Of a stretch of DNA of 64,000 nt, positions 24,155 to 64,000 are shown in pieces (position 1 is the stretch's first letter; each line of letters starts with the position of its first letter). Source of the stretch: Candidatus Nitrospira nitrosa (lineage in GTDB: Bacteria > Nitrospirota > Nitrospiria > Nitrospirales > Nitrospiraceae). Location: positions 1,054,001-1,118,000 of the forward strand of contig NZ_CZQA01000001.1 of the NCBI RefSeq assembly GCF_001458735.1. Reading direction: 5' to 3'. Below the pieces are notes generated by a model. It ran no database searches. It was not told the origin of the DNA and saw nothing but the letters and a program-made list of their open reading frames with translations. The position numbers and the translations under genes are program-made.

Positions 24155-25063
24155 AGGATTTTACCTCGTCATGGTGACGTGATGAAGCGCGTGTGTTCAG
24201 AGAACATACAAACCCTTCAATGGTTTCCCCCTGGGCAGACCCAAGGCGCTATCATGGATAAACTGTCGTACGTTGTGCTCAACTCGAGATCCATGGAGAG
24301 AGGAGCATCGTGCTTGCGCGGCACACTGATGCACATCCCCGTGTCAACAAGTGTGTATCCGACAATCAGGGGCAGAGGATCCTGGCAGTATCGTACCCAT
24401 ATAAGAAGTTGGCAGTTGAGGGGAAGAGAGAGGCGACAGATTTTTAGGGGAAAATGGATAGATGGTGAGATGACATAAGAGAAAGAAGAACACGATACCA
24501 TTCATTACAACCCTCCTTGGTTAATCGTGAACATCGCAGCGTACCAGTTAATGGATCGCCTACCGACTATCGCATCAATAATGTTTCATGAACTGTAGCC
24601 ATAGCTCATCCTGCTGATAAACGAGGAGCGATTACGGCTTCTCGCCTTTAAGCAAACCATCTGCCAGACTACTTTGACGTTGCCCGTAAACAAAATTCGG
24701 TACAGACACTAGGAATGTCTGAATGTTAAAGTACCCGTTGATTTTGCAAAGGAATTACAGAAACAGTTTCTGCAGCTGCTAAGAAAAAGAGAGAAAAGGA
24801 CGGTTGCTTTTTGAGAGCTGCGGAGAAATCTGGTGCAGAATCGCACGCCAATACCTGTGCGGATATCCATCAAGCTCTGTGCAACAGGATGCCCATAAGG
24901 GCTGTGTGATAAGAGCCGCAGGCACTGGGCCGTGGGTCATCCTTTACCGTTATGTCATTTTGTTCTGTCCATGAGAAGCTGGTCTTAGGGCATGCCTCCG
25001 GGAGGTAAAGTCGAGCCGGTTCTCTCACTGGATAAAACTCAAGAATTCAGATGAAGGAGGAAT
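24155..25063. other. Long intergenic region before the DUF2490 locus
   Basis: Over 900 bp without a convincing gene. Open frames at 24068-24478 (plus) and 24217-24501 (minus) lack ribosome sites and look non-coding. A GTGCT...GGCAC palindrome-like site at 24310-24324 is near the motif described elsewhere but has a 5-nt spacer. Nothing else can be named. Confidence 0.5.
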
Positions 25064-26919: not shown

Positions 26920-26976
26920 GTGCACCGGCACACACGCCGTGCGCTAATACACAGTCGCCAATGCGCATACACGCAC
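26920..26976 (+). promoter_or_regulatory. Tandem GTGYR-N4-YRCAC sites upstream of sulP1
   Basis: Two exact copies of the palindromic 14-bp motif start 19 bp apart: GTGCA-CCGG-CACAC at 26920-26933 and GTGCG-CTAA-TACAC at 26939-26952. A one-mismatch copy, GCGCA-TACA-CGCAC, is at 26963-26976, 24 bp after the second. They lie 74-130 bp upstream of the sigma54-like site at 27049, where activator-binding sites would be expected. Confidence 0.6.
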
Positions 26977-27048: not shown

Positions 27049-27064
27049 CGGTCCCATTGTTGCT
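27049..27064 (+). promoter_or_regulatory. Candidate sigma54 promoter of sulP1
   Basis: GG (27050-27051), exactly 10 nt, then GC (27062-27063) within TTGCT. The -24 half is otherwise weak (CGGTCCC against TGGCACG). Predicted start near 27075, 37 nt before the ATG. Confidence 0.5.
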
Positions 27065-27111: not shown

Positions 27112-28455
27112 ATGGACGGCACTATAAGTTCTCTTCCTGCAGGTCAAGGTTCCACCTATCAAGAGTCACTACCCGGGGTATCTCTAACTGAGTCAGCTGC
27201 GTTCCAGGTTGAGTATGCGGGTCGAGATATTGCGGCAGGATTGATCACTGGCGTCATGGCCATTCCCCTCTCTGTTGGGATCGCCATGATGTCCGATTAT
27301 CCCATCAAAGTCGGCCTTGCCACCGTAGCCTTTGCTTGCCTGATTGGGTGGGTGAACGCCTGGATCCGCCCGGGCAACTATATCGGGTGTCCTGGTATTG
27401 CCGCGGGATTGGCGCCGGTATTGGCGATGGGAGTGACGAGTTTTGGAATGGAAAACATGGCCTTTGTAATCTTCCTGACGGCCGTCATGCAGGCGGTCAT
27501 CTGGAAATTCAACTGGCAGCGATACATCCTGCGGGCCGTACCAGCCTACCTTGTGGAAGGACTCCTTGCGGGTATCGGCTTAAAGATTGCGCTGAAATTC
27601 TTTGACTTTACCTACGAGCTTCCCGCTGAATTAGTCACTGTGGATACGTTCTTTAATGGGGCACGCATTCAGATGATGCTCATTTCCTTGGCTGGACTTG
27701 CGGGATTTGTCTATCTGTTCACCAAGTTTCGATACATTCAACCGGCGGTTCCGTATTTCGTCATTATTACAGCAGGTGTGATGCTTGCTCAATTCATTCA
27801 CGTACCTATGTTGCACGTGGAAGATGTCCCCTTATCCTTGGCGCTTCCTATCCCCCACTTCGACAGTGCACTGACCTGGGTTTATGCAGTTGGTTTTGCA
27901 GCGATGTTGGCGATCATCGACGTGATTGAGCAAGTCATGAGCAATGCCGCTATTCAGAAGATCGATCCGCTTAGGCGAGCGTGCAATAGTAATAACAGCT
28001 TGTTAGCCATTTGGATCGCCAATATTGGATCAAGCGTCTTCGGGGGCATGACGAACTTAGACGGGTTGGCCAAGAGCACCACCAATCGATTGGCCGGTGC
28101 TTACACAAAGTTTTCCGTTCTGATTGTCGGCTTCGTGGTGACCTTCTTCGTGATCAATCCTGAATATCTGGAGTTACTACCGAAGTTTGCGGTAGCCATC
28201 GTTATGATGTTTACCGGATGGAAAATGATCGCAGGCCTCATGCATGTGACTCACCATGGCCCATATGCCATGGTGTTAGCCATTCTGACGGGCGCCCTAG
28301 TGTACAAAGTAGGAATATTTGAAGGTCTCCTGATTGCGATGGCCGTGCATGGGGCCGTGCATTACCTGGTCTATACCCAGATCAATAAACAGCCTGCCAA
28401 AGAAGTGATCAGCAACTACTTTATAGGTCTGAAGAATATTGAGACACAGTTCTGA
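27112..28455 (+). CDS. SulP family anion transporter without STAS domain (candidate bicarbonate transporter)
   Basis: 447 residues made almost wholly of membrane helices. The first membrane block DIAAGLITGVMAIPLSVGIAMMSDYPIKVGL is typical of SulP (shown in its conserved core AGLxxGxxAIPLSxGIA). There is no C-terminal STAS domain; the protein ends about 20 residues after the last helix. SulP proteins exchange or import sulfate, bicarbonate and other anions. The location between two carbonic anhydrase genes and the absence of sulfur-assimilation genes favour bicarbonate, but the substrate is inferred. Upstream tandem palindromes and a sigma54-like promoter suggest activator-dependent expression. 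Confidence 0.85.
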   Translation: MDGTISSLPAGQGSTYQESLPGVSLTESAAFQVEYAGRDIAAGLITGVMAIPLSVGIAMMSDYPIKVGLATVAFACLIGWVNAWIRPGNYIGCPGIAAGLAPVLAMGVTSFGMENMAFVIFLTAVMQAVIWKFNWQRYILRAVPAYLVEGLLAGIGLKIALKFFDFTYELPAELVTVDTFFNGARIQMMLISLAGLAGFVYLFTKFRYIQPAVPYFVIITAGVMLAQFIHVPMLHVEDVPLSLALPIPHFDSALTWVYAVGFAAMLAIIDVIEQVMSNAAIQKIDPLRRACNSNNSLLAIWIANIGSSVFGGMTNLDGLAKSTTNRLAGAYTKFSVLIVGFVVTFFVINPEYLELLPKFAVAIVMMFTGWKMIAGLMHVTHHGPYAMVLAILTGALVYKVGIFEGLLIAMAVHGAVHYLVYTQINKQPAKEVISNYFIGLKNIETQF

Positions 28456-28851: not shown

Positions 28852-29769
28852 TCACTTCTTCGTCGCGTTCGCTGTATTTGTACCTTGGAAATTCGACTCC
28901 AGCACGAAGCGTTTATGCAACGGTTGGATCGGTCGCACATTATCGTGTCCCACGAGGGTGCGGAACTTCTTAATCTGTTCGGCGGAGACTTCGATGGAGT
29001 CCTGCATAACTATCCAGGCAACGCCTTCAGAGCAGGGTGGGGTGGTAAAGGATCCGGAATAGAGGTAGTAAGACTTTCGTTCAGGAAGGAGGTTGATCGG
29101 ATTCACGGCATGATTACGATCATCGTTTATTTCGCCGGCCTTGGCAGGGGCATGTTCCAGAAAGGCCTCGAAAAATGGATTGTGCTTCCCCTCCTCCATG
29201 AAAACGGCGACCACCGCGGTCTCATGCCGCTCGTTGTGATGCACCAGATGCAGCTCCATCGGGTAGTGCCGATGATCAATGGTGTGTTCGCTCGGAGTAT
29301 GGAAATGAAACTGTTCAAGCAGGTAGAGGTCATCATCGAACACGATAGTGCTGTCCTTATCAAACTGGAGTGGCGTCTGCCCATGCTTAGGGTACCGCGA
29401 CTGGACCGTTTCCGAAAGCGGTTCAACTTCTTGCAACGTATGTCCGTTGTTGACTACATGGAACGGAGCGTCTCGATAAGAAAATTGGACGTCGTCGAGC
29501 GTCGTCTTTCGGGTGCGTAACAGATCAATCGGTGATTGGTTCATGCCCTTCTCACAGAGGGAAGAATCCGGCCCAAGCTTTCCCCAATGAAGCGGTCCAT
29601 GATCTCCGTCATAGCCCCATGTGCCATGCCCGGATTCTCCTGCATGCAGAAGAGACGGAAGCGACAAGACAAGGGTTATCGTTAAGCCACGAATCACGGT
29701 TCTCGTCACAGACTTGTTGAGCGATAGGGGAACTGGGACTGCTGGGTTCCACAATGCGAATGACTCCAT
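28852..29769 (-). CDS. Alpha-carbonic anhydrase 2, secreted
   Basis: 305 residues. The N terminus has a signal peptide (ITLVLSLPSLLHAGES) preceded by about 25 extra residues; GGGAGG before ATG 29769 supports that start. The mature protein has all alpha-class blocks: WGYDGDHGPLHWGKL, NQSPIDL, QFHFHTPSEH (two zinc His), MELHLVHH (third zinc His) and FTTPPCSEGVAW. Length after signal removal is usual for bacterial alpha enzymes, without the insert seen in copy 1. It faces SulP1 tail to tail. Role: CO2/HCO3- equilibration outside the cytoplasmic membrane. Confidence 0.94.
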   Translation of the reverse strand: MESFALWNPAVPVPLSLNKSVTRTVIRGLTITLVLSLPSLLHAGESGHGTWGYDGDHGPLHWGKLGPDSSLCEKGMNQSPIDLLRTRKTTLDDVQFSYRDAPFHVVNNGHTLQEVEPLSETVQSRYPKHGQTPLQFDKDSTIVFDDDLYLLEQFHFHTPSEHTIDHRHYPMELHLVHHNERHETAVVAVFMEEGKHNPFFEAFLEHAPAKAGEINDDRNHAVNPINLLPERKSYYLYSGSFTTPPCSEGVAWIVMQDSIEVSAEQIKKFRTLVGHDNVRPIQPLHKRFVLESNFQGTNTANATKK

Positions 29770-43429: not shown

Positions 43430-45190
43430 TTGGAAAAGACCCTACACCCGAGAAGCGAAAAACCGCCAAACGGGATTCCTGGCCTAAAATATTGGCGCTA
43501 TGATCTTCTCGCGGGGTTACAGGTCTCGTTACTGGCCTTACCACTATCACTTGGTATCGCACTCGCTTCGGGAGCTCCACCCGTAGCAGCGATGATATCG
43601 GCCATCATTGCGGGCTTCGCCTTTCCGTTGCTCGGAGGGACGTATATCACGATTGGTGGGCCAGCGGTGGGTCTAGCGCCTGCGTCCCTGGCCGGAATAT
43701 TTATCCTAGGGCAAGGAAATGTGGACGCGGGATATCCTCTCTTTCTTGTGGCCGTCTGTCTCTCCGGAGCCATTCAGGTCCTCCTGAGTAGATTCGACAT
43801 CGGTCGCCTAGCAATGTATTTCCCGAGTTCTGTGCTGCAAGGGATGTTAATGGCTATTGGTATACTCATTATCATCCAACAAACTCCTGCTCTCCTTGGG
43901 CACTCAGGCTTTTCTTATACGAGGGACATTTCAGAAGCCCTCCATCGTCTCCCTGAACAAATCTCAGACCTTAATGTCCATGTGTCTAGTATCGGAGTCA
44001 TCGGACTCATTATTCTCTTCCTCCTCAACAGTTCCCTCTTCAATAAGTATCCGTGGGTTAGGACCCAATCCCCACTGCTGGTGGTTTTATGGGGGGTAGT
44101 GGCTGGATCGGCGATGCAGATACCTAACGAGAACCTGATCTCTGTCCCGAATGAGATCTTGACCCAAGGAGTTCAGTTTCCACAATTCGCCGCTGTGTGG
44201 GCACGGCCGGAATTATGGTTTGCTCTCTTCACAACGGTTATCATCCTGACACTGATCAATGCCACTGAGTCACTTGCGACGATTCGTGCGATCGATAAGA
44301 TTGATCCCTTCAAGAGGAGGTCGAATCCTAATGCCACTCTGTGTACGGTGGGCGTATCTACCATGCTTTCAGGGCTCGCCGGAGGACTCATGATCATCCC
44401 CGGTGGAATCAAAAGCACGGCAAACGTCTTTGCTGGGGGAAGAACGTTGTGGGCGAACGCATACTATGCCGGGTTTATGGCAATGTTCCTATGGATTGGG
44501 CCCGAACTGATCAATCGGATTCCTGTCACGGTCTTGGCCGCCTTACTCATTTTCATTGGCTGGCGACTCTGCGCTCCAATCGTCTTCTTCCGTTTGTGGG
44601 CGATCGGGAGAGAGCAGATCCTGATTGCCGGGGCTTGCGTGATAGGGACCATCGTCACATCCAACCTCTTGTTGGGCGTGCTACTCGGAGTTGCGGCGAA
44701 GATTATGCTTCTGTGTCGCGATGTGTTAGTGGGGTTGACTCTGGACCGACGATTCCGCGCCGTCCAGAACGAATCCCTCCCATCTGCCCTCATGGGTTCC
44801 ATCAAGGAACTGTTCCGTGATCCCGTCATTCGAATCGGGGATGGTCGTGCGGGGCCGGAAAGTACGCTTGTGGTGACGGAATCAGGTGGGCATATGAAAC
44901 ATCCGTATAAGATTTACCTTTCATCGGTTAGCTGCATGAACGTCATGAAGCTTGAGGAGCGACTTGAGCTTCTCTTGACACAGACGCAGGCACAACACAC
45001 GTTTCTCCTTATCTTTCGAGGGTATGTCGTCGACCATACGGCGATGGAGTATGTGCATTATTTCAGGGAGCGCTGTCGTCAGACCGGTCATAGGTGCATT
45101 ATTCTGGGTAATGAACGGTTTGTTGCCCATTCAAAACACGCACTGGCCTATCGAGTGACGCAGATGCATGACAGCATGGCGTATGTGTGA
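43430..45190 (+). CDS. SulP family anion transporter with C-terminal STAS-like domain
   Basis: 586 residues starting at TTG 43430; a stop at 43412 and GGGAG at 43415-43419 leave no better start. The membrane part (about 25-430) has the SulP core AGLQVSLLALPLSLGIALASGAPP and GGTYITIGGPAVGLAP (short pieces). The last 110 residues (VRIGDGRAGPESTLVVTE on) look like a divergent STAS domain ending in the FRERCRQTGHRCIILG strand-helix. It is a paralogue of the 27112 gene, with the extra domain. Substrate inferred as bicarbonate or another anion. The two-component genes follow on the same strand. Confidence 0.82.
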   Translation: MEKTLHPRSEKPPNGIPGLKYWRYDLLAGLQVSLLALPLSLGIALASGAPPVAAMISAIIAGFAFPLLGGTYITIGGPAVGLAPASLAGIFILGQGNVDAGYPLFLVAVCLSGAIQVLLSRFDIGRLAMYFPSSVLQGMLMAIGILIIIQQTPALLGHSGFSYTRDISEALHRLPEQISDLNVHVSSIGVIGLIILFLLNSSLFNKYPWVRTQSPLLVVLWGVVAGSAMQIPNENLISVPNEILTQGVQFPQFAAVWARPELWFALFTTVIILTLINATESLATIRAIDKIDPFKRRSNPNATLCTVGVSTMLSGLAGGLMIIPGGIKSTANVFAGGRTLWANAYYAGFMAMFLWIGPELINRIPVTVLAALLIFIGWRLCAPIVFFRLWAIGREQILIAGACVIGTIVTSNLLLGVLLGVAAKIMLLCRDVLVGLTLDRRFRAVQNESLPSALMGSIKELFRDPVIRIGDGRAGPESTLVVTESGGHMKHPYKIYLSSVSCMNVMKLEERLELLLTQTQAQHTFLLIFRGYVVDHTAMEYVHYFRERCRQTGHRCIILGNERFVAHSKHALAYRVTQMHDSMAYV

Positions 45191-45402
45191 GACGACGAGA
45201 GCGATTCTGAAATGGTTCGGGCTTAGGGCACTGGGTGGAGAACCAGCGACTCATTGGATGTCCATGCGGCTAGGGACCTGGGAATTAGCTGAGCAGAGAG
45301 ATGCCACGACCCAAACTCGAAACGCTCAGTCTTGGGAAGGAGAGAGACACGCGAGGCATTATATTCCGCCAGCGGATTACCCTGGAAAAGGAACATCACC
45401 TG

Positions 45403-46572
45403 ATGCAGGCCAGTATTTTCGTTGTCGATGACCAGCCTGCCTTTCGTGCTGCGCTGGAGAAACTCCTATCTCGTATGCAACATCGGGTACGGGCCTTCCA
45501 ATCCGGCGAGGAACTCCTTGCCGCTGTTGAGCATGACCCCCCGGACATGATCCTTCTGGACCTCAAAATGCCTGGGTTAGATGGCATCCAAGTTCTAGAG
45601 GCGCTTCGATTAAAAACGAGGGAGACACTCGTAGTCCTGTTGACAGCGTACGGAACAGTAGAGGACGCCGTCGAAGCCATGAAGCTCGGGGCCTTTGATT
45701 TTCTCATTAAGACGATTGATTTGGACGATGTTGAACGCGTGGTCAATCGGGCAGTCGAACATATTCAATTGCGGCGGCGGGTGTTCTATGACCATCAACA
45801 TCAAGCTGAACAATACAACCTCGGTGACCTCATTGCAGAAAGCCCCGCAATGAAGGCGATGGTTGGGCAACTACAGCACCTGGTGCAACTACCCAATGTG
45901 CCCGTCCTGTTAATGGGAGAGACCGGAACCGGAAAAGAGTATTTGGCCAAGGTCATTCACCATAGCAGCGCACGCGGGAAAGGTCCGTTCGTGAAGATTA
46001 GCTGTACGACGCTTTCTCCTCAGCGGTTTGAGCGAGACTTGTTCGGATATGAACGAGGGGCGTTCGCCGGGGCAGAGCGGAGGAAGCTGGGCTTGTTGGA
46101 TCAGGTGGATACCGGCACCCTGTTTATTGATGAAATCGGCGATCTCGACTTGTCCATGCAGGGGAAAGTTGTTGGAATCGTGCAGGACCAATCCTATCGG
46201 AGACTGGGTGGAACCGAGGATATCGTGGGAGATTTTCGTGTGATTGCGTCGTCGTATCGTGATCTCAAGACGGAAGTTGCGGCAGGGCGATTTCGGGAGG
46301 ATCTCTTCTATCGCCTCAACGTCGTGCCGCTTGTTGTGCCGCAGCTCAGAAATCGTAGAGAGGACATCATACCGCTCGCCAAGCTGTTTATGACGAAGTA
46401 TGGCGTGGAGCTTGGAAAGGAGGTTACCGATATCGATCCTCGAGCCGGTAAGACCCTTCAGCAGTATGAATTCCCTGGCAATGTGCGTGAACTGCAAAAC
46501 ATGATAGAACGAGCAATGATGTTGTCTGTCGGTCGAACCTTGACTCCCGGTGACCTCCCTGGTGCTTATTAG
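45403..46572 (+). CDS. Degenerate sigma54-type response regulator lacking the DNA-binding domain
   Basis: 389 residues from ATG 45403. Receiver domain (1-120) with acidic pair D9-D10, phospho-acceptor D53 and Lys in FLIKTID near 103. AAA+ domain (140-375) with Walker A GETGTGKE (172-179) and Walker B FIDE near 241-244. The sigma54-contact loop reads GAFAGA (219-224) instead of GAFTGA, and the usual ATNR segment is ASSYRD. The frame ends right after the AAA+ lid, so no helix-turn-helix is present. It aligns without gaps to the intact regulator at 48600 through this region. I infer it cannot activate transcription itself and may act as a phosphate sink or mixed-oligomer modulator. Confidence 0.85.
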   Translation: MQASIFVVDDQPAFRAALEKLLSRMQHRVRAFQSGEELLAAVEHDPPDMILLDLKMPGLDGIQVLEALRLKTRETLVVLLTAYGTVEDAVEAMKLGAFDFLIKTIDLDDVERVVNRAVEHIQLRRRVFYDHQHQAEQYNLGDLIAESPAMKAMVGQLQHLVQLPNVPVLLMGETGTGKEYLAKVIHHSSARGKGPFVKISCTTLSPQRFERDLFGYERGAFAGAERRKLGLLDQVDTGTLFIDEIGDLDLSMQGKVVGIVQDQSYRRLGGTEDIVGDFRVIASSYRDLKTEVAAGRFREDLFYRLNVVPLVVPQLRNRREDIIPLAKLFMTKYGVELGKEVTDIDPRAGKTLQQYEFPGNVRELQNMIERAMMLSVGRTLTPGDLPGAY

Positions 46573-46670
46573 GTTTTGACGGTTGTCGAGGCTTCGCTGG
46601 ATATGTGCCTGCAAGAAGGTTGGTTGCACGGTCTTTCGTATGAACCCGTGGCGGGAGAATAGTCACGCAC

Positions 46671-48596
46671 ATGCAAATCCTTTACAAGTTCCTCAATAAT
46701 CTTCCTATTCTTCCCAAGCTCCTTCTTATTCCTGCGGTTCCGTTGCTCTTCCTTCTCCTGTTAGGCGCGATGCTCTCGATGGACGTTCTCACGTTTTTCC
46801 ACGACGAAGAACGCCTGAACGAGCGCTATCTCCTTCAGAAGACGGCGGCTGAGTACATGCGATCAGTGGCCGATCTGGAGACGGCATTTCTCGGATATGC
46901 AATCACACGTGACAACAACTACTTCGAAGGATTTAAACAAAGACAAGCGACTCTCTATGCTTTCGAACGAGAACTGGTCGGCAAACTTCCAGAAGAAGAA
47001 GACCTGCAATTCAAGCAACTGCAAAGAGTGGTCTCCAAATCGGTTGAGGAAAAGGAAGAATTTGTTGGGGCGATTAAGGCGGGATCCTCAGCAGAGGCTA
47101 TTCGGTATATTCAAGAGGGGAAAAGTCGAGAAGTCATGGTTGAGATTCGCACCTGGATGAGACGCTTTGAGGAAATGGAACAGCAAACGACGCAACGGGA
47201 ACTGTCTGCGTTGAACTACGATCAGATCCGAACTATCTTTATCATATTGACCGGTGGAGTCGTGACCCTCGCGCTCATTACTCTGGGCCTCGCCGCCATC
47301 GCCAAATCAATCGTGGCTCCGCTCGTCCAACTATCTAAGGCCGTGAGCTCGGAAACGGGGGAAGCGATTCCCAACATTCCCGCGCTAGAGCGCAGAGACG
47401 AAATCGGGGAGCTGACAAAGGTTATGGGAGTGATGAGCGAACGGATTCGTCAAGATGTGGAAGAACTCCAACACTCCGAGTATTCACTCAGGAAGTTGAA
47501 TGCATCCTTGTCCGCCTCGGAAGCGAAGTATCGAGGATTGGTGGATCACGCCCCCGTCGGCATCGTCATCACGAAAGGCGTGAAGGTCACCTTCAGCAAT
47601 CGATACAATCAGCAGTTAGCAGGCCTTGACCCTGAGAAGGAGGTTGCGCCCACCACATTCCTTCAACACATTCATCCCGCCGACCGCAGTCAGGTCCTGA
47701 TGGCTTTTGCCCAGGCGGTAGCGGAAGGTCGACCGTGCGAAACGATTTTCCGATTTGTCCATGAAGACGGCAACGTACGCAAGATCCTCAGCCGACATGT
47801 TCCCATCATGGATTTGGACTCTTCCGATATTGTCTATGTGGGTTTCAATATTGATATTACGACCCTTGAAAGTCTACAGGTGCGATTGAGTCGGGCGGAA
47901 AACTTAGCGACACTGGGTCAGGTTGCGGCAGGCATCGCCCATGAGCTTAGAAATCCATTGGTCGGAATCGGTTCGACGGCCAAAGGGTTGTTGGATGACT
48001 TCGAGCCTACCGACACGAAGCGAAAAGAGGTCGAGGTGATCCTATCGGAAACGCGTCGGTTGGATCGAATCGTCAATGAAATCGTGGATTTTGCCCGGGT
48101 TCGCCGGATTACTCCGACCCGAGTCGATCTCATCCAACTGGTCGATGAAGTGGCAAACCTGCTGAAGCTGCAATTGGAACAGAAGCATCTCTCTGTCAAG
48201 GCAAACCTCTCACCCATGATCAGTGAAATTCATGCGGATCGTGACCAACTGAGACAAGTACTCCTGAACGTAGTGCACAACGCACTGGAGGCAACCTCCG
48301 ATGGAGGCCCTCCTATCCAAATCACGGCGGATGAGTTATTCCGAGAAGAACGGCCAGGGATTATGATTCAAATAAAAGATGCCGGACATGGAATTTCTCA
48401 GGAGCTGATTGGGCAGATCTTTCAGCCGTTCGTCACTTCTGGGAAACGTACTGGAACCGGATTGGGGCTTGCAATTTGCAGAAATATCATAGAGGCACAC
48501 GGGGGAGATATTTACGCCAGTAGTGAGATAGGAAAAGGGACAATTCTCGGTATCTGGATGCCGCTCGAGCAAGAACCGGTCTCAGCGAAGGGTTGA
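46671..48596 (+). CDS. Membrane histidine kinase (CHASE3-like, HAMP, PAS, HisKA, HATPase)
   Basis: 641 residues. Two membrane helices (about 15-37 and 187-210) enclose a helical periplasmic sensor of the CHASE3/four-helix type. Then HAMP (about 211-265), a PAS domain (about 283-400), the phospho-acceptor His424 in GIAHELRNPL, and a catalytic ATPase domain with NVVHNALEA (N box) and GTGLGLAI (G box) near the end. It is an NtrY/ZraS-like kinase. It ends 3 nt before the intact sigma54 regulator, so they are an obvious pair, and follows the degenerate regulator by 99 nt. The periplasmic signal is unknown. Confidence 0.92.
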   Translation: MQILYKFLNNLPILPKLLLIPAVPLLFLLLLGAMLSMDVLTFFHDEERLNERYLLQKTAAEYMRSVADLETAFLGYAITRDNNYFEGFKQRQATLYAFERELVGKLPEEEDLQFKQLQRVVSKSVEEKEEFVGAIKAGSSAEAIRYIQEGKSREVMVEIRTWMRRFEEMEQQTTQRELSALNYDQIRTIFIILTGGVVTLALITLGLAAIAKSIVAPLVQLSKAVSSETGEAIPNIPALERRDEIGELTKVMGVMSERIRQDVEELQHSEYSLRKLNASLSASEAKYRGLVDHAPVGIVITKGVKVTFSNRYNQQLAGLDPEKEVAPTTFLQHIHPADRSQVLMAFAQAVAEGRPCETIFRFVHEDGNVRKILSRHVPIMDLDSSDIVYVGFNIDITTLESLQVRLSRAENLATLGQVAAGIAHELRNPLVGIGSTAKGLLDDFEPTDTKRKEVEVILSETRRLDRIVNEIVDFARVRRITPTRVDLIQLVDEVANLLKLQLEQKHLSVKANLSPMISEIHADRDQLRQVLLNVVHNALEATSDGGPPIQITADELFREERPGIMIQIKDAGHGISQELIGQIFQPFVTSGKRTGTGLGLAICRNIIEAHGGDIYASSEIGKGTILGIWMPLEQEPVSAKG

Positions 48597-48599
48597 TCA

Positions 48600-49982
48600 A
48601 TGCGTGCAACAGTATTTGTGACAGACGATGAGCATGTCATTCGCACGGCGATCGTCAAGCGTCTGGCCAGACAGGGCCATGCTGCCGTCGGGTACGAATC
48701 CGGCGAGGCCTTGATGGAGGGTCTCCAGCATACGCACCCCGATCTTGTGCTTCTTGATCTCAAGATGTCCGGCATGAGCGGCCTGGAAGCGCTCAAGCAT
48801 GTCCGTCACCTCGCTCCCGCGGCCCTGGTGATCATGCTGACGGCCTATGGATCGGTGCAAGACGCTGTAGACGCGATGAAGTTGGGGGCGTATGACTTCC
48901 TGATCAAGACAGTCGATCTTGAAGGACTCGATGCCGTCACCGGTCGGGCGATCGATATGCTTCAGCTGCGGCGTCGTCTGGAAGCCGAGCTCAGCGGGCA
49001 GGCCAATCAGTTTCATCTGAGTAGTCTCGAAGCGCACAGCCCAGCGATGAAACACTTGTTGGAGCAGGTTCAAGGCGTAGCCGAGAATCCTAAGTCTTCT
49101 GTCATGCTGCTGGGTGAAACAGGGACAGGGAAAGAATTCCTGGCGAGAGTCATCCACCACAATGGGCAGAGATCAGGCGGTCCCTTTGTAGGGGTTAATT
49201 GCACCGCCATTCCTAAGGATTTGTTTGAAAGCGAGTTATTCGGGTACGAGCGAGGGGCATTTACGGGCGCCAACCAGCGCAAATTAGGCCTCCTGGAAAA
49301 GGCGGAGGGCGGCACCCTGTTTCTCGATGAAATCGGTGATTTGGATATGTCGATGCAGGCCAAGTTGCTGCGGGTGATCCAGGAGCGTTCGTTTCGGAGG
49401 CTCGGAAGCACCGACGATCTGGGCGTCGATTTCCGCCTAATTACGGCGACAAATCGAGAAATCAAAAAAGATGTAGAACATGGGCGGTTTCGGGAAGATC
49501 TCTACTTTCGACTCAATGTCGTTACATTTGAAATCCCGCCCCTTCGTAAACGAGTCGAAGATATCATTCCCCTTTGCCAGCGGACCATGGTGCGGTTTGC
49601 CCATGAGTTTGGTAAGCCGGTTCCGGAGCTTGATGCTGACACACGTTTGACTTTAGAGCGCTATCACTACCCGGGGAATATTCGGGAACTCGAGAATATT
49701 ATTGAACGGGCCATGATCTTTTGCTCCGGGCATGTATTGACGGCCGATTACCTCCCTCGTGAATTGCACGACACGGTGAAACAGACGACTAGTTCCGTAT
49801 CGGTCGGACAAGAACGACTGATCCGTATCGAAATGCAAGTCGGGAAACAAACGCTTGAGCAAATCGAGGAGTCGATTATCGAAGAAACCTTACGGCTAGC
49901 GGACTACAACAAGAGTCTCGCGGCCAAACAGCTGGGGCTCACACGGTTTTCGTTAGATCGACGGTTGAAAAAATACAACTGA
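48600..49982 (+). CDS. sigma54-dependent response regulator (NtrC family), intact
   Basis: 460 residues. Receiver (1-120) with phospho-acceptor D53; AAA+ domain with Walker A GETGTGKE (172-179), the sigma54-contact motif GAFTGA (219-224) and Walker B FLDE near 241-244. The C terminus (about 417-460) holds a Fis-type helix-turn-helix, EETLRLADYNKSLAAKQLGL (in pieces), followed by a basic end. It is coupled to the kinase gene. Such proteins bind palindromic sites 100-200 bp upstream and activate sigma54 promoters. It is my leading candidate for binding the GTGYR-N4-YRCAC sites in this island; no binding evidence exists. Confidence 0.94.
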   Translation: MRATVFVTDDEHVIRTAIVKRLARQGHAAVGYESGEALMEGLQHTHPDLVLLDLKMSGMSGLEALKHVRHLAPAALVIMLTAYGSVQDAVDAMKLGAYDFLIKTVDLEGLDAVTGRAIDMLQLRRRLEAELSGQANQFHLSSLEAHSPAMKHLLEQVQGVAENPKSSVMLLGETGTGKEFLARVIHHNGQRSGGPFVGVNCTAIPKDLFESELFGYERGAFTGANQRKLGLLEKAEGGTLFLDEIGDLDMSMQAKLLRVIQERSFRRLGSTDDLGVDFRLITATNREIKKDVEHGRFREDLYFRLNVVTFEIPPLRKRVEDIIPLCQRTMVRFAHEFGKPVPELDADTRLTLERYHYPGNIRELENIIERAMIFCSGHVLTADYLPRELHDTVKQTTSSVSVGQERLIRIEMQVGKQTLEQIEESIIEETLRLADYNKSLAAKQLGLTRFSLDRRLKKYN

Positions 49983-57096: not shown

Positions 57097-57293
57097 CCTA
57101 GCCCGCATTATTCATGACTCTTCTGCGGCAACCACCGATCCGCTGTTGCGACAAGCCTGCGGCCGACGGGCTCGCCCTCTAGACCTTCGACGTACTGCAT
57201 GAGTACACCTCAGGACCTCCGGGCTCCGCGCGCCGATCTCACAACGCGGCTGGGCGGTTTCGCCACGAACAGTCATGAATAATGCGGGCTAGG
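57097..57293. mobile_element. MITE-like element with 23-bp perfect terminal inverted repeats
   Basis: The left end (57097-57119, beginning CCTAGCCCGC) and the right end (57271-57293, ending GCGGGCTAGG) are perfect inverted copies of 23 bp. They enclose about 150 bp of G/C-rich, non-coding DNA. There is no transposase. Flanking bases show no clear target duplication. Size and ends fit a non-autonomous miniature element mobilised by an IS elsewhere in the genome. It sits in the divergent gap between DAB locus 1 and the MpsC-like gene. Confidence 0.65.
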
Positions 57294-57346: not shown

Positions 57347-57691
57347 ATGGAAAATTCGATCCGTAATGCCATCATTAAGTTTGAGCAGGAGTTTCTTGGG
57401 CGTGGCCCTGACGAAGTCCGTGCGTTGGTCGCACGCGATCTGGTTGTTGTGCGGCTCAAAGGCGTCTTAACACCGGCCGAGCGCCAGCTGGCGAAGACCG
57501 CAGAGGGTATCGAAATGGTCAAGCGGCTGCGGCAGAACCTGATTGCCCAAGGGCGAGACAAGCTCTGCGAACAGATTGGTGAGATTACCGGAGCGAAGAT
57601 TCTCGGTCTCTTCACTGATATTGATGTCCAGCTCGGGGAACGAGTGTTTGTCTTTACGGTGGATCGAGAACTGCAAAACGGAGCGCGGTAG
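57347..57691 (+). CDS. DUF2294 / MpsC-like protein
   Basis: 114 residues with the DUF2294 pattern: a helical start (IRNAIIKFEQEFLGRGPDEVRALV), the strand DLVVVRLKGVLTPAER, a helix with LAKTAEGIEMVKRLRQ and the closing GLFTDIDVQLGERVFVFTVDR. In Staphylococcus this domain is MpsC, encoded with MpsA and MpsB, which are relatives of DabB and DabA in bicarbonate uptake. Here it lies between two dabAB loci, which supports a link to inorganic carbon transport. Its exact role is unknown even in the model system. It is upstream of a DUF72 gene. Confidence 0.82.
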   Translation: MENSIRNAIIKFEQEFLGRGPDEVRALVARDLVVVRLKGVLTPAERQLAKTAEGIEMVKRLRQNLIAQGRDKLCEQIGEITGAKILGLFTDIDVQLGERVFVFTVDRELQNGAR

Positions 57692-57826: not shown

Positions 57827-58738
57827 ATGATGGCATCGTTGGTCAGATTCGGCACTTCGACCTGGACCTACGAGGGGTGGAAAGGCCAGGTGTATCTCAA
57901 GGACTATTCTAAGGGCACCTTTACCAAACAGTGCCTATCGGAGTATTGGCGATTCCTGCACAACGGTTCACCACTCTTCCATACCGTGGGTAACGACTCC
58001 ACGTTCTATCGGCCACCGACGAGCCAGCAGCTTCGTGCCTACCGCGACCAGATGCCGGAGCGGGTTGAGATGTGTTTCAAAGTCTGGGAGGACATCACCG
58101 TGCCGGTCTTCGCCCAGCATCCACGGTATGGGCTAAAGGCTGGTAAGCCGAATCCTCGTTTTCTTGATGCGCAGCTGTTCAACGACCTCGTGTTGAATTC
58201 GTTTCGAGAGGCCCAGTTCCAGGACTGCACCGGCCCGTTTCTATTTGAGTTTCAACGTCATGGGCTTTCAATCGGTGAGTTCTGTTCCAGACTGGATCGT
58301 TTTTTCAGCGAACTCCCGAACGAGTTCAAATATGCCGTCGAGATCCGTAATGCCGGGATCCTTGGGCCCGAGTATCGAAAGGTGTTGGAGACTCACGGCG
58401 TTGCGCACGTGTACAACCATTGGTCCTATATGCCTGCGCTGGCTGAACAACACAAAAGGATGCGGGAGACGTTCACAGCTCCTTTCACCGTTCTTCGCCT
58501 ACTGACGCCATTAAAAATGAGTTATGCGGATGCCAAGAAACGGGCAGCGCCTTATACCAAGATTGTCGCAGAACTCCCAGAGATGCGACGAGAGACCGTG
58601 GCGATCATTCAACAATCAATCGCGCAAGCTAAGCCGGCCTATGTCTTGGTGAACAATCGGAGTGAGGGCAATGCGCCGAAAACCGTGCAAGGCCTTGTGG
58701 AGTTGTTAGGAACCACTGGGCCGGTTCCACATGAGTGA
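57827..58738 (+). CDS. DUF72 family protein
   Basis: 303 residues. DUF72 signatures are visible: RFGTSTWTYEGWKG at the N terminus, GNDSTFYRPP, FKVWEDITVPVF, the YAVEIRNAGILG strand and VYVLVNNRSEGNAPKT near the end (in pieces). The family has a TIM-barrel fold of unknown biochemical role. ATG 57827 and 57830 are both possible starts. It follows the MpsC-like gene by about 135 bp on the same strand. Confidence 0.88.
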   Translation: MMASLVRFGTSTWTYEGWKGQVYLKDYSKGTFTKQCLSEYWRFLHNGSPLFHTVGNDSTFYRPPTSQQLRAYRDQMPERVEMCFKVWEDITVPVFAQHPRYGLKAGKPNPRFLDAQLFNDLVLNSFREAQFQDCTGPFLFEFQRHGLSIGEFCSRLDRFFSELPNEFKYAVEIRNAGILGPEYRKVLETHGVAHVYNHWSYMPALAEQHKRMRETFTAPFTVLRLLTPLKMSYADAKKRAAPYTKIVAELPEMRRETVAIIQQSIAQAKPAYVLVNNRSEGNAPKTVQGLVELLGTTGPVPHE

Positions 58739-59265
58739 CAATCATTCGCAATGAGCTATGTGAATTGAACGAAGGCGTGATGGTTGATCCCACAGAATTA
58801 GTGGAGCGCGCTGTAGCTTGTGGAGAAATACCGGGTAGCATCGCGGCGATAGGGATAAATGGTATGACGGATCAATGTGTCGCCGATTAGGTGCGTGGCT
58901 CAAACAATTGAATGACGACGGTACCAGGCCTCGCTTCAGGTGCGATGTCTGTCACGATGTTTTGAGCCCTCACCATGATGACTTGCTCAATCTGCTCCCA
59001 GAGGATGTGTTGACAGGAATCGAACATGGCACGGTGAAATAGACGAAGTCACTTGGTTCTTCATGAAGGAGTCAAGCCGTAGAGCAGCCTGGTTCATTCT
59101 ACATGGCCATCTGGATTCCCTCAGATCCCCAGCGCTCTGTATTTTAGGGCAACTGAATCGACATTCGTCAGGCCTTTCCCAAGTCACCACCCGCGCGTCC
59201 TCCTGTGTATTGCATTACTAACCGGAGTATAGGAGGCAGCGTGCTTCTCCCAGGAGTCCGTGTAG
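58739..59265. other. Intergenic region, nothing recognised
   Basis: About 530 bp between the DUF72 gene and the dabB2 control region. No open frame has a ribosome site and natural composition, and no repeat was seen. Confidence 0.45.
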
Positions 59266-59317
59266 GTGTGTCAGCGCACGATGTGTGTGTCAGTACACAG
59301 TACGTGTGCCCGCACAC
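59266..59317 (+). promoter_or_regulatory. Three exact GTGYR-N4-YRCAC sites at 19-bp period upstream of dabB2
   Basis: GTGTG-TCAG-CGCAC (59266-59279), GTGTG-TCAG-TACAC (59285-59298) and GTGTG-CCCG-CACAC (59304-59317) all fit the palindrome perfectly. Their starts are exactly 19 bp apart. The array lies 112-164 bp upstream of the sigma54-like -24 box, the usual place for activator sites. Confidence 0.65.
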
Positions 59318-59428
59318 AGCGATGACTATCTCTCTCTGCCTTGAGTCCAGTGATTGAAGACCCTCTCTCCTTCAACTTAAACCGCATTATGAGACAAGAG
59401 AGAGCAGTGAAGAGTCCGACATTTCTGT

Positions 59429-59444
59429 GGGCACTCTTCTTGCT
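59429..59444 (+). promoter_or_regulatory. Candidate sigma54 promoter of DAB locus 2
   Basis: GGGCACT at -24 and TTGCT at -12, with exact GG-N10-GC spacing (GG 59430-59431, GC 59442-59443). Only two positions of TGGCACG-N4-TTGCW differ. The start near 59455 fits ATG 59483 rather than TTG 59459 as the dabB2 start. Confidence 0.6.
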
Positions 59445-59482
59445 GAATCTTAGGAGCGTTGCAGAAACCAAATCGAGGTCCC

Positions 59483-61171
59483 ATGCAATGGATTGCGGCG
59501 CTCGTCACGATCTTCTCACCGTTGATTGCGAGTTCTCTGGTCATGCTCTGCGGGTCTACTCTTGGGGAGCGTGTGGCCAGGATTGGAATAGTGGGCCTGA
59601 TTATTTCGACAGGCGCGGCACTGTTCTCGCTGTATGCGGTGGTGGAAGGTCCCTCACTTCATCTCACTCTCCCCGGTTTTCCTGATCTCATTGCGCCACA
59701 GCTATTCATCGATCGACTCTCTGGCGTAATGATGGTGCTGGTGACCGGGGTCAGTCTGGTGATCCACGTCTATTCCAGCCGGTACATGCAGGGCGATCAA
59801 GGTTACATCAAGTTCTTCAGTCTCTTGAGCCTTTTGACTTTTGTTTTATTGATGCTCGTCACCAGTGGGCACCTCCTCTGGTTATTTGTGGCCTGGCATG
59901 CCGTCACCTGGCTCTTGCGAACGCTGCTCGCATTTAACCGAGAGAGTCAGGCAGCTCGAGAAGCCGGACGCACAACGGTATGTATACAGGGATTGGGAGA
60001 TGCGGCGCTGCTGGTGAGCGTTGGATTGATCTATATGATGTTTGGCACTCTCGACCTACCGATCCTGTACCAGACGTGGAACAGCGGCGCGACTGGTCCA
60101 GTCTTTGGTGAGGGAACTCGGTGGGAGATTTCAGCCGGCACGGTCATTACATTGATCATGACCCTCTCCGTTCTGACAAAGTCGGCTCAGTTTCCGTTTC
60201 ACATCTGGTTGCCCGGTACAATCGAGGCTCCGACACCGGTCTCTGCCATGCTGCATGCTGGGATCGTCAATGCCGGTGGGTTTCTTGTGAACAGACTGGC
60301 CCCGCTGTACGGATCCTCACCCACCACACTGCATCTCCTCTTCGCCATTGGCGCGCTGACGGCTTTGATCGGGGCCTTGATCATGCTGACACAGTCCAGC
60401 ATTAAGCGAACCTTGGTCTACAGCACGATGGGACAGATGGGGTACATGATCATGGAATGCGGCTTGGGTGCATTTGCCTTAGCCGTCTTTCATCTGTGCG
60501 CTCACGGGCTCTTCAAGGCGACATTGTTCCTCAATTCTGGCACCAATATCCACAAGGCACGAACTGATTTCACCATGCCGGAATCTCATGCGGTTCGTGA
60601 AACGGCCGGCTTTGCTCTTGCACCCTGGGTGGTCGGATTACTCCTTACGCTGGTCATGCCGTTGGTGATCTTGTTACTTGCCCATGGCGCCATTCACATC
60701 CCATTGTTCGAGACCCAGGGCACCATGATTTTCCTCTTCTTCGCGTGGGTCACATCCGCCCAAGCAATTTTCAGCTTATACCGGTTGCGTTCCCCTGCCT
60801 CGTGGAAAGCGTCTGTCACGATGATCATGACAGTGGTGCTGGTCGGATTCACCTACCTCTGGGCTGGAGAATCCTTTACCCACTTTCTGTATCCGGCTTC
60901 CGGGCAAGCTGTCACATATTTTCAGGCCGCTGCATGGCATCAAGGTTTCTTTGAAACCTTCGTTGCCGTCACTTCCCTGGCCATTGTGACTGTCTGGGGA
61001 GTGTTGTACGCAAATGCCCATGGCATGAAAATGCTGTTTCCCGGCTGGTTGGAACAACTGCATCGAACGCTGTACGTGACCTTCCTCAACGCGCTGTATG
61101 TGGAGGACATCTTTCGTGCACTGAACCCGTTTGCGAGTCGTACGCGTTTCACAAAGCCTAATCGTATCTGA
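59483..61171 (+). CDS. dabB: DabB2, NuoL/ND5-like ion-conducting subunit
   Basis: 562 residues from ATG 59483, preceded by GAGG; the longer TTG start at 59459 would overlap the predicted transcription start. About 15 membrane helices. The family core is clear: Lys before SAQFPFHIWLPG, the TPVSAMLHAG turn and STMGQMGYMIMECGLGAF. It is a paralogue of dabB1 with nearly identical core blocks but without the His-rich loop. It is followed 16 nt later by dabA2, giving the plain two-gene DAB layout. Upstream activator-type sites and a sigma54-like promoter suggest inducible expression. Confidence 0.92.
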   Translation: MQWIAALVTIFSPLIASSLVMLCGSTLGERVARIGIVGLIISTGAALFSLYAVVEGPSLHLTLPGFPDLIAPQLFIDRLSGVMMVLVTGVSLVIHVYSSRYMQGDQGYIKFFSLLSLLTFVLLMLVTSGHLLWLFVAWHAVTWLLRTLLAFNRESQAAREAGRTTVCIQGLGDAALLVSVGLIYMMFGTLDLPILYQTWNSGATGPVFGEGTRWEISAGTVITLIMTLSVLTKSAQFPFHIWLPGTIEAPTPVSAMLHAGIVNAGGFLVNRLAPLYGSSPTTLHLLFAIGALTALIGALIMLTQSSIKRTLVYSTMGQMGYMIMECGLGAFALAVFHLCAHGLFKATLFLNSGTNIHKARTDFTMPESHAVRETAGFALAPWVVGLLLTLVMPLVILLLAHGAIHIPLFETQGTMIFLFFAWVTSAQAIFSLYRLRSPASWKASVTMIMTVVLVGFTYLWAGESFTHFLYPASGQAVTYFQAAAWHQGFFETFVAVTSLAIVTVWGVLYANAHGMKMLFPGWLEQLHRTLYVTFLNALYVEDIFRALNPFASRTRFTKPNRI

Positions 61172-61187
61172 ACGAGGAGTGGATCCT

Positions 61188-64000
61188 GTGACGGCACAGT
61201 GCGGAACGGATCGATTCACTGACGCACAACGAATGGAGCTGCGCTCATACGTCCAATTGGCGGGCGAGTGTGTCTCTCAGTATTGGCCCATGCGGACGTT
61301 TATTCATCACAATCCGCTCCATGGACTGGAGAGGATGCCGTTTGAACTGGCCGTGGAGCACGGAGAACGGTTGTTCGGTGGACGAGGGTATTTGAGTAAC
61401 GAGGAGTATCGCCGTCACTTCAGAGCTGGACGTATTATGAGTGAAGATCTTCAGGCAGCACTCGAGTCGATTGCTCTAGACGAGAACATTACATTTGCAG
61501 GTAAACGTTTTAGACATCAAGAAATTCTTGCGGCGCTCGTGGTGTCTGGTCTCACCGACTCAGATGGCGCCGTCGATTCTGTCGACGGCCAGCCCAGTGC
61601 GGAAGGGGTGCTCACCTGGCTTCAATCTCAGCCATGCACAGAGATCAGACTCGACAATCCCACCTCTTCGGCAGAAATATCGCATCTGTCGGCACGGGAA
61701 ACGCTCAGCGCTTGGTGCGATGCAACGTTGGGTACCGCCCTTGTCAAACGTATCAACCAGGAAATGGTGAAGTGGTGCAGCTCGTTCCTCGATGAGGGCG
61801 AGGCAGGTTGGAGCATGCCGGGGCGCGAGCAGACTTTTTACCGAGCGTGGAAGTCCCTTGCAGCCCATGATTGTACTCTGCGTCTCATCGGCATTCAGGA
61901 TGCGGCCGCCAAGATCGCCGCTCTGCCTGATCGTCCTGATGATGCCCTGCTGCAACACCTTGCACAGATGCGTATTCCCAAACAAGCGTGGGAGTCCTAT
62001 CTCTCGTCGCAGTTAACCGCCCTACCGGGATGGACAGGGTATCTCAAGTGGCGATCTCAGCAAACGGACCATCCCTATCAGGAGGTCTACCCGGTTGACC
62101 TCGTCAAATACCTGGCGGTCAGACTCTTCTATGAACGAGAACTTGTGCAGGAGGCCTGTCGGGATACCTTGGGGATAGACGGACAGGATGAGGCGATCCA
62201 CCGTTTTGTCGTAGCCTATCCACACGCGTATCGCCTGCGTCGGACTTGGGTCAACGGACAGGTGCTGACTCCATTCCAACGGCAAGTTCGGCAGATGCTG
62301 AAACCGAAGACTCGACATGCGCATCACAGTTGGGAAGAACTTGGCCTTCAGCACGAGGCCCATTGGCGTACACGCCAAGTTCACCAACGCCATCATCGGC
62401 TGGCCTCACAGCTCATGCGCCTGTCGAAGGCACTTGCGGTAGATCCGGAGGCGATCCAAACAACCACCCGGTCAGACCTGCAGACATTATACGAATGGCT
62501 GGAAGGCTGCTCATCGGCCCTGCAGTCTTCCATATGGTTGAACGCGTTCGAAGGAGGGTACAGAAGGCGAATCCTCCATGAGTTGACCGCAAGCCCCAGG
62601 CAAGGTGAGGCGGATTCTGTCTCTCCTTCATTGCGAGCCTTAGCCCAGGTCGTTTTCTGCATCGACGTGCGTGCCGAAGTGTTTCGTCGGCATTTGGAGC
62701 AGTTGGGTGGGTATGAAACATTCGGTCTTGCGGGATTCTTCGGCGTCCCGCTGGATTATCAGCCATTCGGCGCACATCAGCCTGTCGCGCACTGTCCTGT
62801 TCTGCTGAAGCCAAAGAATCGGGTCCGCGAGGTTCCACGAAGTTACCAAGGCCTTTTGGTGGAAGAACGGAAACAAGCCGAACAGTTGGCTCGCACGGCT
62901 ACTGAATTGCTGCATGACTTGAAGACCAACGTGGTGACACCCTATGTCATGGTCGAGGCGATCGGCTGGTTTTTTGGGGTTCCGCTGCTAGGCAGGACGC
63001 TCTTTCCTGCTTGGTATGCCAAGGTCAGACGATGGGCCCGACGAGTGTTCATGCCATCACTGGCCACCACCCTGACAGTGGAGACACTGCAACGGGAAGA
63101 GGCTGAGGAAATGGTCGCCACCGAACAGCGAGCGATCATTCGGGAGGTTGTCCGTCAACGGCTCGCTCTCGACGGCGCTGTGCTCTCGCCGACACTGCTC
63201 GATAAAATCAGACGAGTAGCGATCGGTGAAGCCGAAAATAGTCATGAGGACATTGTGAGGGTACTCGGCTTGACATCTGAAGCGCAGGCGGCCCTCTATC
63301 AAGAGTTACGCGATCGCCATCGGATCAGTCCAAGAGGAGTGTCCGCGTACTTAGGACGTCTCACACATACGGGATTTTCGGCGGGAGAACAAGCCTACCT
63401 TGTCGAGGCGGCCTTACGGCTCATGGGTCTCACAGCCAATTTCGCACGTGTTGTCCTGTTCTGTGCGCACGGCAGCACCTCGCAGAACAACCCATACGAA
63501 GCGGCGCTGGATTGCGGCGCCTGCGGTGGAAATCATGGATTGCCGAACGCTCGTACGATCGCGGCGATGGCCAATAAACCGACATTGCGGGAACTACTGA
63601 AAAAACGTGGGATCGTGATTCCTACGGATACACAGTTTTTGGCTGCAGAGCATGATACGACGACAGACTGTGTCCGCATCGTCGATTTGGAAGACGTTCC
63701 GGCTACTCACCGGAAAGATCTCGAGCGATTACTGCTCGATCTCGATCGAGCAGGGGGGCAGGTGTCGCTGGAACGGGCTCAAGCCTTGGCGCCACGAACT
63801 TCCCATAACGCCCGTTCGGCTCGGCAGTCAGCTAGACGAAGGAGTGAGGATTGGGCGGAAGTGAGACCTGAGTGGGGGCTGTCAAAAAACAGTTTGATTG
63901 TGATCGGCCGTCGCGCTTTGACCCAAGGCCTGAATCTAGAAGGTCGCTCGTTCCTCCATTCGTATGACTACAGGCAAGATGCGGCGGGCAAAATTCTGGA
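61188..64000 (+). CDS. dabA: DabA2 (DUF2309), 3' partial
   Basis: The frame runs open from GTG 61188 (GAGGAG upstream) to the right edge, 937 complete codons, so the C-terminal part lies outside. The N terminus RMELRSYVQLAGE and SQYWPMRTFIHHNPLHGLE follow DabA1. The zinc and catalytic residues are present: Cys491 with Asp493 in FCIDVRAE, His761 in FCAHGSTS and Cys776 in LDCGACGG, with the same 15-residue spacing as in DabA1. It forms a DAB pump with DabB2. It diverges clearly from DabA1, so the duplication is old or one copy was acquired. Confidence 0.93.
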   Translation, partial: MTAQCGTDRFTDAQRMELRSYVQLAGECVSQYWPMRTFIHHNPLHGLERMPFELAVEHGERLFGGRGYLSNEEYRRHFRAGRIMSEDLQAALESIALDENITFAGKRFRHQEILAALVVSGLTDSDGAVDSVDGQPSAEGVLTWLQSQPCTEIRLDNPTSSAEISHLSARETLSAWCDATLGTALVKRINQEMVKWCSSFLDEGEAGWSMPGREQTFYRAWKSLAAHDCTLRLIGIQDAAAKIAALPDRPDDALLQHLAQMRIPKQAWESYLSSQLTALPGWTGYLKWRSQQTDHPYQEVYPVDLVKYLAVRLFYERELVQEACRDTLGIDGQDEAIHRFVVAYPHAYRLRRTWVNGQVLTPFQRQVRQMLKPKTRHAHHSWEELGLQHEAHWRTRQVHQRHHRLASQLMRLSKALAVDPEAIQTTTRSDLQTLYEWLEGCSSALQSSIWLNAFEGGYRRRILHELTASPRQGEADSVSPSLRALAQVVFCIDVRAEVFRRHLEQLGGYETFGLAGFFGVPLDYQPFGAHQPVAHCPVLLKPKNRVREVPRSYQGLLVEERKQAEQLARTATELLHDLKTNVVTPYVMVEAIGWFFGVPLLGRTLFPAWYAKVRRWARRVFMPSLATTLTVETLQREEAEEMVATEQRAIIREVVRQRLALDGAVLSPTLLDKIRRVAIGEAENSHEDIVRVLGLTSEAQAALYQELRDRHRISPRGVSAYLGRLTHTGFSAGEQAYLVEAALRLMGLTANFARVVLFCAHGSTSQNNPYEAALDCGACGGNHGLPNARTIAAMANKPTLRELLKKRGIVIPTDTQFLAAEHDTTTDCVRIVDLEDVPATHRKDLERLLLDLDRAGGQVSLERAQALAPRTSHNARSARQSARRRSEDWAEVRPEWGLSKNSLIVIGRRALTQGLNLEGRSFLHSYDYRQDAAGKIL

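Follow-up and report, generated by a model that had tools for sequence, protein, structure and literature searches.

The stretch of 'Candidatus Nitrospira nitrosa' DNA analyzed here (the window, 64,000 nucleotides of contig NZ_CZQA01000001.1) ends within DAB locus 2, at which a DabA gene (PF10070) adjoins a gene for a DabB-type antiporter subunit, the arrangement by which we recognize a DAB pump. Three predicted activator sites and a sigma54-like −24/−12 element lie upstream of dabB2, and a comparable arrangement precedes SulP1, the second target in the window (Table 1). From our reading of the ribosome-binding site, the ATG of dabB2 at 59483 is more likely to be its start than the TTG at 59459 given in the list of open reading frames (ORFs). 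Two MpsC-family proteins flank the locus (window 57347-57691 and L041:7705-8085, minus strand), and at window 57098-57293 inverted repeat ends (CCTAGCCCGCATTATTCATGACT and its complement), separated by about 150 bp, resemble a small repeat element as judged by eye only.

Table 1. Features of the proposed regulon and its candidate regulators (window positions, or contig positions where prefixed C1)
Feature	Position	Strand	Basis or remark
Activator site 1 of dabB2 (predicted)	59266..59279	.	GTGTGTCAGCGCACG / GTGTGTCAGCGCAC
Activator site 2 of dabB2 (predicted)	59285..59298	.	GTGTGTCAGTACACA / GTGTGTCAGTACAC
Activator site 3 of dabB2 (predicted)	59304..59317	.	GTGTGCCCGCACACA / GTGTGCCCGCACAC
Sigma54-like −24/−12 element of dabB2	59429..59444	+	GGGCACTCTTCTTGCT; 1 mismatch vs TGGCACN5TTGCW
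dabB2, Proton_antipo_M subunit of DAB locus 2	59483..61171	+	Pfam; start codon is our choice
dabA2 (PF10070)	61131..64000	+	ORF continues beyond window end, to about 64484; 5′ limit provisional
Activator site 1 of SulP1 (predicted)	26920..26933	.	Pattern search
Activator site 2 of SulP1 (predicted)	26939..26952	.	19 bp from site 1
Sigma54 element of SulP1	27049..27064	+	CGGTCCCATTGTTGCT; +110 from last site
SulP1, SulP-family transporter	27112..28455	+	Sulfate_transp; no STAS match
RR1, NtrC-type regulator beside DAB locus 1	48600..49982	+	Pfam; disfavored as activator
HK2, PAS + GAF histidine kinase	C1:1124148-1126136	minus	Pfam
RR2, NtrC-type response regulator	C1:1122743-1124146	minus	Pfam: receiver (PF00072), Sigma54_activat (PF00158), Fis-type HTH (PF02954)
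Isocitrate dehydrogenase gene	C1:1120270 to about 1121286	minus	Start set after conserved leader

All three sites that an earlier note had described before dabB2 are present, at a step of exactly 19 bp, as is the sigma54-like element that it had placed after them; the first base of this element lies 125 bp from the first base of site 3. Two details of that description stand only in part. The sites are free of mismatches as GTG-N8-CAC under purine/pyrimidine rules (GTGYRNNNNYRCAC), but their inner bases are not palindromic, and the suggestion that bound dimers would share one helical face has to be qualified: 19 bp amounts to 1.8 turns (at 10.5 bp per turn) and steps across the family vary from 17 to 20 bp, which would turn neighboring dimers by about 70 degrees relative to each other. 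Taken alone, the three sites and the sigma54 element at dabB2 are weak evidence. The window contains 7 single sites versus 3.2 expected, a number reached in 9 of 100 shuffles, and its sigma54 matches with at most two mismatches show no excess (25, versus 30.6 in shuffles), such that a sigma54 match by itself is no proof.

Comparison across genomes strongly supports the predicted control of the DAB pump through activator-type sites and sigma54. The closest DabB2 relatives (G009, 61%; G014, 62%), which were picked as such before any site search, both retain two sites whose step is 18 bp, followed 123 to 125 bp further on by a sigma54-like element; the loss of the repeats from close relatives that retain the gene, which the earlier note had named as telling against its proposal, was thus not seen. 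When the region upstream of dabB is aligned for the window and five relatives, the sites and the sigma54 element are kept and the sequence between them has diverged, with the interval from site 3 to the sigma54 element some 60 bp longer in the window promoter than in those of the three nearest relatives (65 bp in theirs). Loci found through the response regulator RR2 (see below) have a strict site before the DabB2 gene in 10 of 10 cases and two or three such sites in 9 of 10; among all loci with a DabB2 gene, most of which were selected for having a pair, all 25 have at least one strict site and 24 have two or three. No strict sites occur at 18 more distant dabB loci (45 to 49% identity, L014-L031). 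In some relatives, dabB and dabA lie apart, and each has a separate array (L087, L090, L113, and L138). Although the DabB2 proteins of L094 and the window share 98.6% identity, their promoter regions (compared over window 59200-59483) are very different, a hint of recombination or replacement at the locus.

Site repetition is more than chance: 59 of 175 family genomes contain pairs with a step of 17 to 20 bp, versus none for a reversed control pattern, with the pair pattern having been written after sites had been seen in G000, G009, and G014. In the distinct promoters considered below, steps of 18 bp (24) and 19 bp (28) are joined by those of 17 bp (1) and 20 bp (6). Surroundings were assessed in 58 of the 59 pair-bearing genomes (all but G127); of the 59, 53 have a DabB2 ortholog, a DabA gene, or a SulP1 ortholog directly downstream of one or more pairs. 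In G052, G140, G185, G186, and G187, a pair falls in one common homologous stretch with no target gene nearby (G140 matches the other four at 74 to 76% over the longer part of this stretch, which in G052, the only one checked, lies inside an unrelated ORF). A wider search (steps of 21 to 50 bp) yielded 30 of 175 genomes, with control matches in three genomes, and a second class of steps at 29 to 32 bp. Single sites (29 forward and 27 reverse, versus 25 and 24 for the control) are too frequent to define the regulon. Nine site clusters without a target by rule were dropped: L078 (the nontarget stretch of G052), L097/L134 and L110/L127 (each pair one place, in fragmented SulP1 genes), L107 (SulP1 cut by a contig end), L114/L125 (one place, after the RR2 stop), and L141 (two overlapping sites before the isocitrate dehydrogenase gene).

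No more than about 175 bp past the first base of the last site, 54 of 55 distinct promoters carry the pattern GG[CT]N4TTNTTGC on the coding strand; because the pattern was derived from a matrix of these same promoters, after they had been viewed, this count is partly by construction, which is not true of the strand and distance results. On the opposite strand, it occurs in 0 of 55 promoters, and in random windows from the same loci it occurs in 166 of 20,000. From the last site to the −24 element, the median distance is 120.5 bp (range, 66 to 134 bp; 54 promoters), and the single exception comes close to the pattern (TGGCCCCGGTTTTGCT). GG-N10-GC at a narrow distance before a gene, the mark of a sigma54 promoter, is thereby present in 54 of the 55. 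A sigma54 consensus chosen beforehand places 33 of the 55 above the 95% point of random windows, and in a second, overlapping set of 44 3-kb loci the derived pattern is present in 37 of 39 target loci and 0 of 5 nontarget loci. The genome has one Sigma54_DBD gene.

SulP1 matches neither the NCBIfam BicA model nor the STAS domain at an E value of ≤0.001; it is therefore not classed as a BicA bicarbonate transporter, and its carrying of bicarbonate is putative. It also has no PDB sequence match at an E value of ≤0.01. The other transporter, SulP0, matches BicA far below the cut-off (100 of 880 bits). A carbonic anhydrase gene at 28852-29769 was rejected as a target, since it lies on the strand opposite to SulP1 and lacks a strict site in its near upstream region. 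On the minus strand of the window, a strict single site at 24833 and a one-mismatch sigma54 match at 24651-24666 lie about 500 to 680 bp upstream of another alpha carbonic anhydrase gene (23183-24154, minus), which is a possible further target; L093 has a site at the same distance. The protein encoded at L041:16926-18104 (minus), in a carbon-gene-rich region, weakly resembles carboxysome shell carbonic anhydrase (Pfam CsoSCA_cat, 2.5e-07, above the cut-off; NCBIfam, 1.3e-09, far below the cut-off).

The GTG-N8-CAC motif is also present upstream of an isocitrate dehydrogenase gene: a strict site lies between −420 and +60 in 19 of 20 upstream regions (in L126, the site is within an over-long ORF call). 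In an alignment of 14 of these 20 regions, most sequences have a degenerate site, a half site, and a strict site at a step of about 30 bp, followed in 14 of 14 by GG-N10-GC; the sigma54 patterns of the other promoters match 0 of 20, such that only this looser form, recognized by alignment, is found. That the regulated enzyme might be the only isocitrate dehydrogenase in the genome is ruled out by the presence of a monomeric one, and PF00180 detects the regulated gene plus one higher-scoring gene that is probably leuB. A strongly conserved leader stretch of the gene (CGGATGGTCCGAT..CCCTTGCTGCTTAAGGGAGG; L041:9787-9827, minus; C1 near 1121300), also present in L092, L096, L123, L129, and others, can form a hairpin that would cover the ribosome-binding site (−14.1 kcal/mol, a value without a shuffle control) and might constitute a second layer of control. 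An Rfam search of the leader gave no match, and viral contigs were scanned for it (22 loci). Just past the RR2 stop is another conserved site set with GG-N10-GC, which in relatives precedes a gene whose product, about 800 residues long, has no Pfam match and, by eye, is apparently secreted. In this genome, that gene appears to be mostly lost: the orphan promoter keeps its site set (L041:11000-11244; C1:1122499-1122743), and the gene seems to run into a PAPS-reductase-like remnant, so named from reading the sequence.

About 5 kb beyond the right edge of the window, HK2 lies directly upstream of RR2 in the same direction, as expected of a partner kinase, and in many relatives the gene order is dabB-dabA-HK2-RR2 or SulP1-HK2-RR2. 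The best 19-residue hydropathy of HK2 is only 1.46, so the kinase is probably soluble, without a membrane segment. RR2 has the three domains of an NtrC-type regulator; the GAFTGA loop of such regulators reads GSFTGA in the five RR2 orthologs aligned. Its best NCBIfam models, NtrC and AtoC, score 390.7 of 558.6 bits and 417.7 of 714 bits, far short of the curated cut-offs, and we assign it neither to AtoC nor to NtrC proper. Orthologs of RR2 (E value of ≤1e-150) are present in 61 of 175 genomes and coincide closely with paired sites (50 genomes with both, 4 with sites only, 11 with RR2 only, and 110 with neither; odds ratio, 125), a tabulation that counts the five nontarget-stretch genomes as site-less (50/9/11/105 when they are included) and for which Fisher values overstate independence, as the genomes are related. 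Seven of the 11 RR2-positive genomes without strict pairs have, in coordinate-matched loci, one strict site and the sigma54 motif at the SulP1 or DabB2 promoter. A strict site is present in 28 of 31 RR2-ortholog loci; for distant homologs (identity of at most 44%), the count is 7 of 49.

Building on the observed sites and sigma54 motifs, the conservation of both, their co-occurrence with RR2, and the identity of the targets, we propose, with a probability of roughly 0.8, a sigma54 regulon for inorganic-carbon supply in which HK2-RR2 acts at tandem sites of dabB2-dabA2, SulP1, and the isocitrate dehydrogenase gene. Binding and phosphorylation of RR2, the direction of control, and the signal are here predicted from sequence. 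At dabB2-dabA2, the three sites would serve a sigma54 promoter as its upstream activating sequence. HK2, as a probably soluble PAS-GAF kinase, would phosphorylate RR2, which would bind tandem GTG-N8-CAC sites, most often 105 to 135 bp upstream of the −24 element, and whose AAA+ ATPase would open the sigma54 polymerase complex. RR2 would act likewise at the SulP1 and isocitrate dehydrogenase genes; its further targets in relatives would be dabA genes located apart from dabB and probably the gene for the large secreted protein. Where HK2-RR2 lies downstream of a target gene, it may be autoregulated by read-through. When carbon is scarce, the regulon would raise the supply of inorganic carbon.

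The first candidate for the activator was RR1, which lies about 9 kb from the dabB2 sites, next to DAB locus 1, and whose HTH helices are similar to those of RR2, so that cross-binding is possible; moreover, four genomes have target-linked pairs and no RR2 at the threshold (G009, G105, G118, and G121, which are 76 to 95% complete). Against RR1 stands the pattern of co-occurrence, on which RR1 was dropped: RR1 (E value of ≤1e-140) is only loosely associated with paired sites (35/19/54/67 in the same order and with the same treatment of nontarget-stretch genomes; odds ratio, 2.3), none of the 52 genomes with RR1 and without RR2 has target-linked pairs, 15 genomes have pairs and RR2 without RR1, and DAB locus 1, beside RR1 itself, has no strict site upstream. 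We regard this alternative, with RR1 or another NtrC-type protein of similar HTH in the place of RR2, as improbable; RR2 of the HK2-RR2 pair is the likely activator of the array, as judged from these distributions. Window 43430-49982, next to DAB locus 1, holds SulP0, a sigma54-type regulator without an HTH match, a CHASE3 kinase, and RR1, and is a parallel control system without the GTG-N8-CAC motif. That the sites instead bind a repressor or a sigma70-dependent regulator, with the sigma54-like motif being incidental, would be compatible with the chance-level frequency of single sigma54 matches in the window, but the motif is found again in 54 of 55 promoters, always on the coding strand and within a narrow range of distances, and no sigma70-type promoter match exists within 58600-59700, which makes this reading very improbable. 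Their low complexity (GTGTGT/CACA) might also mark the sites as a chance or neutral tandem repeat; this we find scarcely credible given pairs in 59 of 175 genomes versus 0 for the control and the persistence of sites while the sequence between site and promoter diverges.

The alternative that we take most seriously, and still consider unlikely, is a real circuit answering to a noncarbon signal (pH, redox, or energy state), in which DAB and SulP serve ion or pH balance: both proteins move ions, and the PAS and GAF domains present in HK2 are of types that respond to many ligands in other proteins. The targets speak against it: two are the subunits of an established inorganic-carbon pump, another is a transporter, and another an enzyme that works in the CO2-fixing cycle; from their nature we infer that a carbon signal is the simplest common factor, and carbon limitation, the inducing condition suggested in the earlier note, fits them. 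Within the proposed inorganic-carbon regulon, HK2 might be a soluble protein that senses carbon status inside the cell (as CO2, bicarbonate, or a metabolite such as 2-oxoglutarate) and commands, via RR2 and sigma54, the whole inorganic-carbon program in rTCA-cycle nitrifiers, a tentative idea that we think somewhat likelier to fail than to hold. If it is true, the sensor would govern two uptake systems and a second isocitrate dehydrogenase, that is, an isozyme switch at a CO2-fixing step. The proposal names a regulator together with its operator, promoter class, and targets, links uptake to an enzyme of the fixation cycle, and gives a rule for separating a carbon-linked SulP gene from other SulP genes in the Nitrospira group. 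Because N. moscoviensis carries the system, the circuit is testable in culture.

Our search of the open-access literature found no paper on an HK2-RR2 carbon circuit and no account of how carbon uptake is regulated in rTCA-cycle nitrifiers. Sigma54-dependent regulators near nxrAB in N. moscoviensis, discussed for nitrite oxidoreductase in the main text of one study (PMC6606698), share their organism group and promoter class with the HK2-RR2 circuit, and that main text contains no bicarbonate, carbonic anhydrase, inorganic carbon, or two-component terms. Judging from the portions of three further sources considered here, isocitrate dehydrogenase ranks with the most abundant rTCA enzymes of N. 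moscoviensis, with the isozyme unspecified there (PMC8407350); a review of carbon toolkits lacks the term "two-component" and names no such regulator (PMC10880623); and BicA and a carbonic anhydrase are noted in 'Ca. N. alkalitolerans' (PMC7784846).

Among known two-component systems, NtrBC, AtoSC, and ZraSR resemble HK2-RR2 in their receiver, AAA+, and Fis-type HTH domains, their tandem upstream sites, and their GG-N10-GC promoters, but HK2-RR2 differs in its predicted GTG-N8-CAC operator with a step of 17 to 20 bp, its inorganic-carbon targets, and its PAS-GAF kinase, which probably has no membrane segment. LysR-type regulators (CbbR, CmpR, and CcmR) control inorganic-carbon genes; they would share with HK2-RR2 the purpose of controlling carbon uptake, whereas protein family and promoter class differ. 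DAB/MpsAB pumps, for which we know of no report of sigma54 control, likewise combine DabA (PF10070) with a Proton_antipo_M partner; the DAB loci described here differ from them in their predicted sigma54 control and, in some relatives, in the separation of dabB and dabA, each with an array of its own.
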